A stretch of DNA of 32,559 nt from an uncultured Ruminococcus sp. (GTDB lineage: Bacteria > Bacillota > Clostridia > Monoglobales > Monoglobaceae). A program made the translations under genes and the position numbers. The stretch's first letter is position 1; every line of letters starts with the position of its first letter. This document shows, in pieces, positions 2,707 to 3,268 of this stretch. A model generated the notes under the pieces. That model was not told the origin of the DNA. It saw nothing but the letters and a program-made list of their open reading frames with translations, and did no database searches. The stretch is taken from the NCBI GenBank assembly GCA_902760955.1, contig CACWIG010000019.1, positions 1 through 32,559 of the forward strand, in the 5' to 3' direction.

Positions 2707-2729
2707 AAAAAAAGACACCCTTGTGGATG
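2707..2729 (-). terminator. Weak terminator-like hairpin at the outer end of the hairpin array
   Basis: On the minus strand CATCC, loop ACAA and GGGTG form a 5-bp stem (one G-T pair), followed by TC and seven T residues. It is the last element of the minus-strand unit that starts at the tRNA-Asn remnant, so it could mark the 3' end of a transcript through the array. Confidence 0.4.
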
Positions 2730-2754
2730 ACTTTATAAAGCAACAAATTTTTAA

Positions 2755-2926
2755 ATGAAGCATTTGCCTATCGGTAAATATGAAGTGACAGCGTTGCCGT
2801 CATGAAGTAAATCCGCCAAAGCGGATTAATGAAGCGAAGCGTTCCAAATGTGCCGCAAGGCACACTTCATTAGCAAAGCGACTTCATGTGCGAAGCACAC
2901 TTCATGTTCCTTAAGGAACACTTCAT
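2755..2926. repeat. Hairpin array punctuated by ATGAAG / CTTCAT words
   Basis: Short hairpins of unrelated sequence are separated by one constant hexamer. ATGAAG occurs at 2755, 2780, 2802 and 2829; its reverse complement CTTCAT occurs at 2865, 2882, 2900 and 2921. Between them lie ATTTGCC-tatc-GGTAAAT (2762-2779), a TGAC..GTCA hairpin (2786-2802), ATCCGC-caaa-GCGGAT (about 2811-2826), TGTGCC-gcaa-GGCACA (2849-2864), a weak stem (2871-2881), TGTGC-gaa-GCACA (2887-2899) and GTTCCTTAAGGAAC (2906-2919). Because four words are followed by four complements, the whole unit can also fold as one long stem with side hairpins. No reading frame is credible here. I recall similar unannotated sequence in other gut Clostridia but cannot name a described family. 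Confidence 0.8.
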
Positions 2927-2928
2927 TG

Positions 2929-2960
2929 AAAGAACGACTTGCCGAAACAAGTCGTTCTTT
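2929..2960 (-). terminator. 13-bp perfect hairpin between the array and the tRNA remnant
   Basis: AAAGAACGACTTG (2929-2941) and CAAGTCGTTCTTT (2948-2960) pair perfectly around a 6-base loop. On the minus strand it follows the tRNA-Asn 3' remnant at the place a terminator would occupy behind a tRNA, and the descending arm ends in TTCTTT. The T tract is short, so its activity is uncertain. Confidence 0.5.
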
Positions 2961-2961
2961 C

Positions 2962-2990
2962 TGGCTCCTCCAGTTGGACTCGAACCAACG
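2962..2990 (-). repeat. 29-bp copy of the tRNA-Asn 3' end (CCA, acceptor strand, T-arm)
   Basis: Bases 2962-2990 are identical to 3193-3221, which encode the CCA end, the 3' acceptor strand and the whole T-arm of the neighbouring tRNA-Asn. The copy stops at the base of the T-arm; the anticodon and D arms are absent, so it is not a functional tRNA. The same orientation at 231 bp distance resembles the direct repeat left by integration at, or recombination with, a tRNA 3' end. Confidence 0.88.
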
Positions 2991-3150
2991 TCCGTTTGCA
3001 ACATCACCTCACCTGCACCGTCTTTGACGGTTTGCTTCGCTGTGTTGCGGCACAACCCTCCGCACTCCCTGTTTCCGCCACAGGCGGCGGTCGTTGCTCG
3101 GTTCCCTGCGTCCGCAAGCGGCTCGCAGGCTCGTTGGTTCAACTCATTTA
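2991..3150. other. GC-rich spacer between the tRNA copies, no gene seen
   Basis: Of bases 2991-3140, 94 of 150 (63%) are G or C, against clearly AT-rich surroundings. It contains short tight hairpins: CCGTC-ttt-GACGG (3018-3030), CCGCC-aca-GGCGG (3075-3087) and CCGC-aa-GCGG (3112-3121). It is bracketed by GAACCAACG (2982-2990) and its inverted copy CGTTGGTTC (3132-3140), which matches part of the tRNA T-arm. The frames open across it merely translate the tRNA 3' ends (APPVGLEPT). Confidence 0.6.
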
Positions 3151-3192: not shown

Positions 3193-3268
3193 TGGCTCCT
3201 CCAGTTGGACTCGAACCAACGACCCTGCGGTTAACAGCCGCATGCTCTACCAACTGAGCTATAGAGGA
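3193..3268 (-). tRNA. tRNA-Asn (anticodon GTT)
   Basis: A complete 76-nt cloverleaf with an encoded CCA. The acceptor TCCTCTA pairs with TGGAGGA (one G-T); D-arm GCTC/GAGC; anticodon stem TGCGG/CCGCA around the loop CTGTTAA, giving anticodon GTT; T-arm GTTGG/CCAAC with loop TTCGAGT; discriminator G. It has its own promoter and terminator and lies directly behind pflA on the same strand, so pflA read-through could also reach it. Its last 29 bp are duplicated at 2962-2990. Confidence 0.97.

Follow-up and report, generated by a model that had tools for sequence, protein, structure and literature searches.

A two-half hairpin array behind a tRNA-Asn fragment, and an apparently undescribed family of hairpin-array elements in Clostridia

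The window (the whole stretch of DNA that was analysed, 32,559 nucleotides) contains an array of small hairpins separated by a fixed seven-letter word, which is probably a protein-less, non-autonomous member of a selfish family that combines a four-helix protein with an array of its cognate heptamer word. This family of selfish hairpin-array elements is apparently undescribed so far, and no matching description was found in the open-access literature. The array itself, the covariation of its stems, the wider family, the adjacency to tRNA genes, orthologous sites with and without an array, the associated protein and the match between word and protein clade were all computed. The genomes analysed were mostly drafts, and the counts of genomes, copies and loci given throughout are lower bounds, to be read as "at least".

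The array in the window

Four copies of ATGAAG are followed by four of CTTCAT with hairpins in between, as the original prediction had stated, and both the positions and a shuffle test agree with it. The two-word pattern had six matches in the window against 0.30 expected, a number that none of the shuffles reached, and both strands folded much more stably than shuffles did (z values of -7.6 and -7.3). The spacer had been described as a constant hexamer; the word is indeed fixed but has seven letters (ATGAAGT/C). All seven small hairpins are present, one of them (2871-2881) weak. The T-tract hairpin reported at one end corresponds to a terminator-like site on the minus strand (2729-2716), and the perfect hairpin at the other end is 14 pairs long rather than 13. 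The parts are the following.

2716-2729, minus strand: terminator-like hairpin, then a T tract to 2707; far end of the element
2755-2926: whole array, made of two inverted halves with eight words in all and their hairpins
2755-2760, plus strand: word 1, ATGAAG
2762-2779: hairpin 1, ATTTGCC / GGTAAAT; 94% of cells paired in 12 relatives
2780-2785, plus strand: word 2, ATGAAG
2787-2801: hairpin 2, GACAGC / GCCGTC (GACGGC or AGTGGC elsewhere, with both arms altered); three pairs with both-side changes
2802-2807, plus strand: word 3, ATGAAG
2809-2828: hairpin 3, AAATCCGC / GCGGATTA; 95% of cells paired, two pairs with both-side changes
2829-2834, plus strand: word 4, ATGAAG
2835-2864: core, CGAAGCGTTCCAAA and then hairpin TGTGCC / GGCACA
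2865-2870, minus strand: word 5 (CTTCAT on the plus strand)
2871-2881: weak hairpin 5, TAGCAAAGCGA; 2-3 pairs
2882-2887, minus strand: word 6 (CTTCAT on the plus strand)
2888-2899: hairpin 6, GTGC GAA GCAC(A), with the DNA mini-hairpin loop C-GAA-G on the plus strand
2900-2905, minus strand: word 7 (CTTCAT on the plus strand; CTTAAT in 8 of 11 relatives)
2906-2920: hairpin 7, GTTCC / GGAAC; 96% of cells paired
2921-2926, minus strand: word 8 (CTTCAT on the plus strand)
2928-2961, minus strand: end hairpin belonging to the element, with 2928-2941 perfectly paired to 2948-2961 (14 pairs)
2962-2993, minus strand: 3'-end fragment of tRNA-Asn, its CCA directly abutting the element

The tRNA fragment noticed beside the array is 32 bases long and reproduces the 3' end of the tRNA-Asn gene (3193-3268) with 97% identity; in other copies, relatives of the end hairpin separate the array from the tRNA end. 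With hairpins split by one 7-nt word in two inverted halves, placed directly behind the tRNA-Asn fragment and the end hairpin, the window array has both the plan and the site of the proposed element. No PF05635 gene lies directly downstream of it, and for this reason the copy is filed as a protein-less derivative. Its site is not inside a 23S rRNA gene, as it would be for a 23S rRNA intervening sequence, and an Rfam scan of the window gave tRNA only. A CRISPR array was rejected, in agreement with the original reading, since the repeat flips in the middle of the array and the spacers are hairpins.

A second structured repeat was seen at 2994-3145, in the interval that separates the tRNA-Asn gene from the 3' fragment. 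It begins with an inverted copy of the T arm and finishes with a tRNA 3' end, and relatives of it were found in two congeners (G001 and G004), at four further loci (L035, L412, L443 and L448) and in Monoglobus pectinilyticus records.

Relatives, Gut-1 and tRNA flanks

The pattern of three RCTTCAT words was found in at least 5 of the 51 genomes from the order and, within the class, in additional families; its reversed-control version had zero matches in the same 51 genomes. These zero control matches, together with the shuffles, rule out chance or a coding repeat as the origin of the array. The stems, thought at first to be unrelated to one another, turned out to be a fixed series, repeated in other genomes without change of order, e.g. 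ATTTGCC, then GACGGC or AGTGGC, then AAATCYGC. Across 12 aligned elements the local hairpins had 35 cells changed on both sides against 13.7 +/- 3.0 in shuffles, and none of 500 shuffles was as high. The view of a non-autonomous element with its fold under selection was supported, and so were compensatory changes in the stems. Similar sequence had been expected in other gut Clostridia, and copies beside tRNA fragments had been proposed as a check; both were found, and neither of the two outcomes named beforehand against the prediction (no further copies, or no compensatory changes in the stems) occurred. Taken as a whole that reading stood in part, having missed the relation to Gut-1, the PF05635 partner, the habit of sitting at tRNA flanks and the seven-letter rule.

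Genome G297 contains a terminator, an array and a gene start in three tandem copies of 373 bp each (L316, contig C53, 3400-4300). In this triplicate one hairpin has been swapped whole, from GACGGGC to AGTGGC, in copies that are otherwise near-identical. A one-directional array with eleven GTGATA/G hairpin units in a row was seen at L429 (G239:C86). A scan of viral contigs with the three-word pattern picked up coding repeats; none of the matches inspected was a real array. A search of phages and plasmids with the window DNA returned only tRNA and neighbouring DNA.

The closest relative with a name is the Gut-1 RNA (RF01706; Weinberg 2010, PMC2864571). The full model matched the right half of the window array (2876-2963, minus strand) with 24.3 bits (E 0.011), below the gathering cut-off of 50 bits, and a related element, L133, with 45.4 bits (E 6e-6). 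The RF01706 entry consists of three hairpins split by RUGAAAU, and the window differs from it in its word, ATGAAGT/C, the plan being otherwise alike. Both have hairpins split by a fixed short word and come from the same gut hosts, and the window's right half matches the entire model. The Rfam entry, however, covers only the three hairpins of one half, is called an sRNA gene and is described from the human gut only, whereas the full element is a dispersed one with two halves. Matches to RF01706 were found in at least 71 of 391 genomes of the class, at least 39 of them above the cut-off, often with about 10 or more copies per matching genome. The window's own genome has two elements above the cut-off (G000:C27, 9764-9838, and G000:C3, 38991-39061). 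Reading of the loci showed that Gut-1 corresponds to the left half of a fuller element of the same plan with the word RTGAAAT, made of a terminator hairpin, 3-4 hairpin units, a core and 3-4 inverted units. In G297 six near-identical copies of the Gut-1 type lie at six unrelated sites, the best-preserved of them with inverted terminal repeats at their outer ends (ATTGGAGTTTA / TAAACTCCAAT). From this full layout and the multiple copies it follows that Gut-1 is a dispersed repeat.

Many RF01706 matches were located close to a contig end, at a distance of a few hundred bases at most; repeats of the Gut-1 type therefore probably break assemblies. Another observation was a conserved tail, approximately GCATCTAAACCATTCGGCTCTTCCA, about 12 bases after many RTGAAAT arrays (L404, L369, L366 and L449). 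Like a tRNA, this tail has CCA at its end, and where copies are in tandem the next element adjoins it directly.

A tRNA gene 3' end adjoined 24 of the 41 non-redundant full RTGAAAT elements and nine more came after a CCA followed by an A-run; a tRNA pointing away from the element was found in none of the 41. The tRNAs were of many kinds, and the distance from the tRNA 3' end to the first word (32-42 nt in 20 measured elements) is taken up by the terminator hairpin only. Other array copies were found behind ordinary terminators, near a tmRNA gene and between genes of operons, for example two that we take from their sequence to be dnaK and dnaJ. In the genus of G012 the occupants of a single orthologous tRNA-Glu locus vary: two species have RTGAAAT arrays, two GCGATAT arrays, two other repeats and two a plain terminator. 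This variety is best interpreted as elements having reached the locus independently. Four congeners were examined for an empty counterpart of the window copy. In G001 and G004 the tRNA-Asn fragment is likewise present, together with a plain terminator, and the array is absent, but the gene beyond differs from that of the window. Because the flanks differ, this empty site is not a clean one and is suggestive only.

Protein partner, hairpin loops and alternative readings

Many arrays are found approximately 75-90 bp upstream of a gene of the PF05635 family (23S_rRNA_IVP, S23p), which codes for a four-helix bundle and which we take to be related to Avd. The family is present in all 20 array-bearing genomes tested, and in the window's own genome a sister array (G000:C36) has a PF05635 remnant alongside. 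The closest solved structure to one array-linked protein was 2rld (E 1e-32). At least two hairpin units, counted by an exact repeated word within 330 bases of the gene, stood upstream of 32 of 54 full-length PF05635 genes, against 0 of 325 shuffles. Furthermore, the word labels placed on the PF05635 protein tree (ATGAAGT, RTGAAAT, GCTAAAT, TCGATAT, GCGATAT, ATGAATT, ATGATGT, ATGATAT, GTGATAT and none) required nine changes, the minimum for ten labels, against a mean of 37.1 in shuffles. The word list had been compiled by eye ahead of the automatic counting; with labels assigned by counting only, 42 genes required eight changes, the minimum for nine states, and shuffles at least 23. About one quarter of the PF05635 genes received no automatic label, most of them having plain heptamer tandems. 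Arrays with RTGAAG, the type of the window, pair with the clade of L460, L461 and L485. The word groups span several bacterial families, and therefore the word follows the protein and not the host.

The loops of the hairpins follow a rule of their own. In a census of 561 hairpins with five word types, three-base loops read on the word strand were TNC in 254 of 350 cases and GNA in 4, and four-base loops were TNNC in 106 of 175 and GNNA in none, usually closed by C-G. The opposite strand has therefore C-GNA-G and C-GNNA-G loops, and in both halves this is the strand whose 3' end points outward from the element. Loops of the GNA and GNNA types form extraordinarily stable DNA mini-hairpins that shield 3' ends from nucleases (PMC4686876), which favours single-stranded DNA as the putative working form.

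Putting these data together, a full copy would consist of a terminator-like hairpin, two inverted half-arrays with one seven-letter word and a PF05635 gene downstream. It would settle immediately after the CCA of a tRNA gene or tRNA remnant, with other terminators and the gaps between operon genes as further sites. One word goes with each protein clade, ATGAAGT here, RTGAAAT in Gut-1 and GCTAAAT, TCGATAT, GCGATAT or GTGATAT elsewhere. Since the loops obey the DNA rule on strands with outward 3' ends, the PF05635 protein may recognise its own word, with the hairpin, on single-stranded DNA, and arrays with no protein, that of the window included, would be served in trans by the protein of another copy. 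Elements of this kind would be mobile, with a host enzyme assumed to cut, copy or join the strands because PF05635 proteins are not known as enzymes; we know of no enzymatic role for this family.

Rfam files Gut-1 as a structured non-coding RNA, and if this applied to the whole family the hairpins would work as a transcript. The match of RF01706 to part of the array, the covarying stems and the mRNA-leader position of the TCGATAT and GCTAAAT arrays would all suit such an RNA, but we consider it unlikely given the many dispersed copies per genome and the terminator that separates the array from the upstream tRNA in most copies of the Gut-1 type. In RNA, GNRA loops prefer a purine at the third place. 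The array loops have no such bias (purine to pyrimidine 53:53) and obey instead the GNA/GNNA rule of DNA, and since the rule goes with the word strand, the two halves would have to be transcribed in opposite senses. The original prediction also allowed for a single branched cruciform in which words 1-4 pair with 8-5. It is true that the words of the two halves are exact reverse complements and that they are used in the minimum-energy fold, yet covariation between partner words in the aligned elements equalled that of shuffles, the words being conserved as sequence, and the CTTAAT of word 7 in 8 of 11 relatives leaves its partner unaltered and is thus uncompensated. Sister elements (RTGAAAT) had no consistent pairing of partner-word letters and half-arrays exist (L010 and L011), so that we consider this fold extremely improbable.

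Two other kinds of dispersed DNA were compared with the arrays. REP and BIME sequences (PMC2817692), which a Y1 (RAYT) transposase mobilises by acting on hairpins in single-stranded DNA that bear a short foot word, resemble them in being dispersed, paired and inverted palindromes with such a word and, next to some of the copies, the gene of a cognate protein; 16 of the 20 array-bearing genomes have PF01797. A REP-like origin is nevertheless very unlikely. PF01797 is missing from four array-bearing genomes (G135, which is 98% complete, G393, G260 and G100), the linked gene codes for PF05635 and not for a Y1 transposase, and the word tracks PF05635 clades. In addition, the word is here the fixed part and the stems vary, each half of the roughly 170-bp element having four words. 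A requirement for a reverse transcriptase was ruled out, PF00078 being found in only 4 of the 20 array-bearing genomes; with Y1 missing from four, neither enzyme is required. The inverted ends, found in the G297 copies only and with no target duplication established, would fit classic MITEs of an ordinary DDE insertion sequence, with the PF05635 genes as passengers. This is highly improbable, since no such ends were seen in the tRNA-linked copies, the PF05635 linkage and the word co-evolution hold across host families, and PF05635 genes of other phyla have plain tandem seven-letter words on their flanks and no transposase within the element.

PF05635 genes and plain heptamer tandems

Where PF05635 genes have no hairpin array, plain tandem words of period 7 were found upstream in 11 of 12 cases. 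At 18 annotated loci (Nostoc, Planktothrix, Bernardetia, Treponema, Monoglobus and others), with a period threshold of 19/28 or more, the best period was 7 in 31 of 36 PF05635 flanks against 4 of 72 distal pieces from the same loci, and the words upstream and downstream were inverted with respect to each other in 11 loci and direct in seven. A fresh search of viral contigs gave seven PF05635 loci (five distinct by sequence), all seven with a best period of 7 upstream. Heptameric repeats have been described as over-represented and little studied (PMC4692102). Those of Nostoc, Calothrix and Xanthomonas (GGGAATC-type) are likewise intergenic tandems of seven-letter words, and tandem words of seven letters flank PF05635 genes in Nostoc and other plasmids; unlike the arrays, those heptameric repeats have no hairpins between their words.

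The 23S rRNA intervening sequences, such as that of Coxiella, have been described as selfish and carry the same four-helix protein family, with in vivo synthesis of the protein doubted for the Coxiella copy (PMC4990558). The arrays described here differ in lying behind tRNA genes or at other intergenic sites and not inside 23S rRNA, in having word arrays and, for the window copy, in having no gene.

A wider reading can be offered tentatively, as a possibility that we rate a little under even odds. PF05635 proteins could be devoted to a kind of mobile DNA that is widespread, has gone unrecognised and has no known recombinase, each clade reading its own seven-letter word, and the arrays (with mini-hairpins between the words in Clostridia, as plain tandems in cyanobacteria and others) could be both landing pads and ends. 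If true, it would explain together three things that are unexplained: the orphan Rfam motif Gut-1, the S23p/IVP protein family found in selfish rRNA inserts and the over-represented seven-letter repeats of many bacteria. It would also mean that the tRNA flanks of Clostridia have been shaped by elements that annotation overlooks or calls RNA genes. As the word type matches the protein clade, recognition of the word by the protein is directly testable with a few proteins and short DNAs.

PF05635 genes were also seen inside defence-like operons (L544, L550, L558, L559, L560 and L561). Across these loci they lie between hsdS and hsdR, between the DISARM gene drmD and the BREX gene pglX, beside DUF1156 and Swt1-like genes, and beside cas1/cas2.
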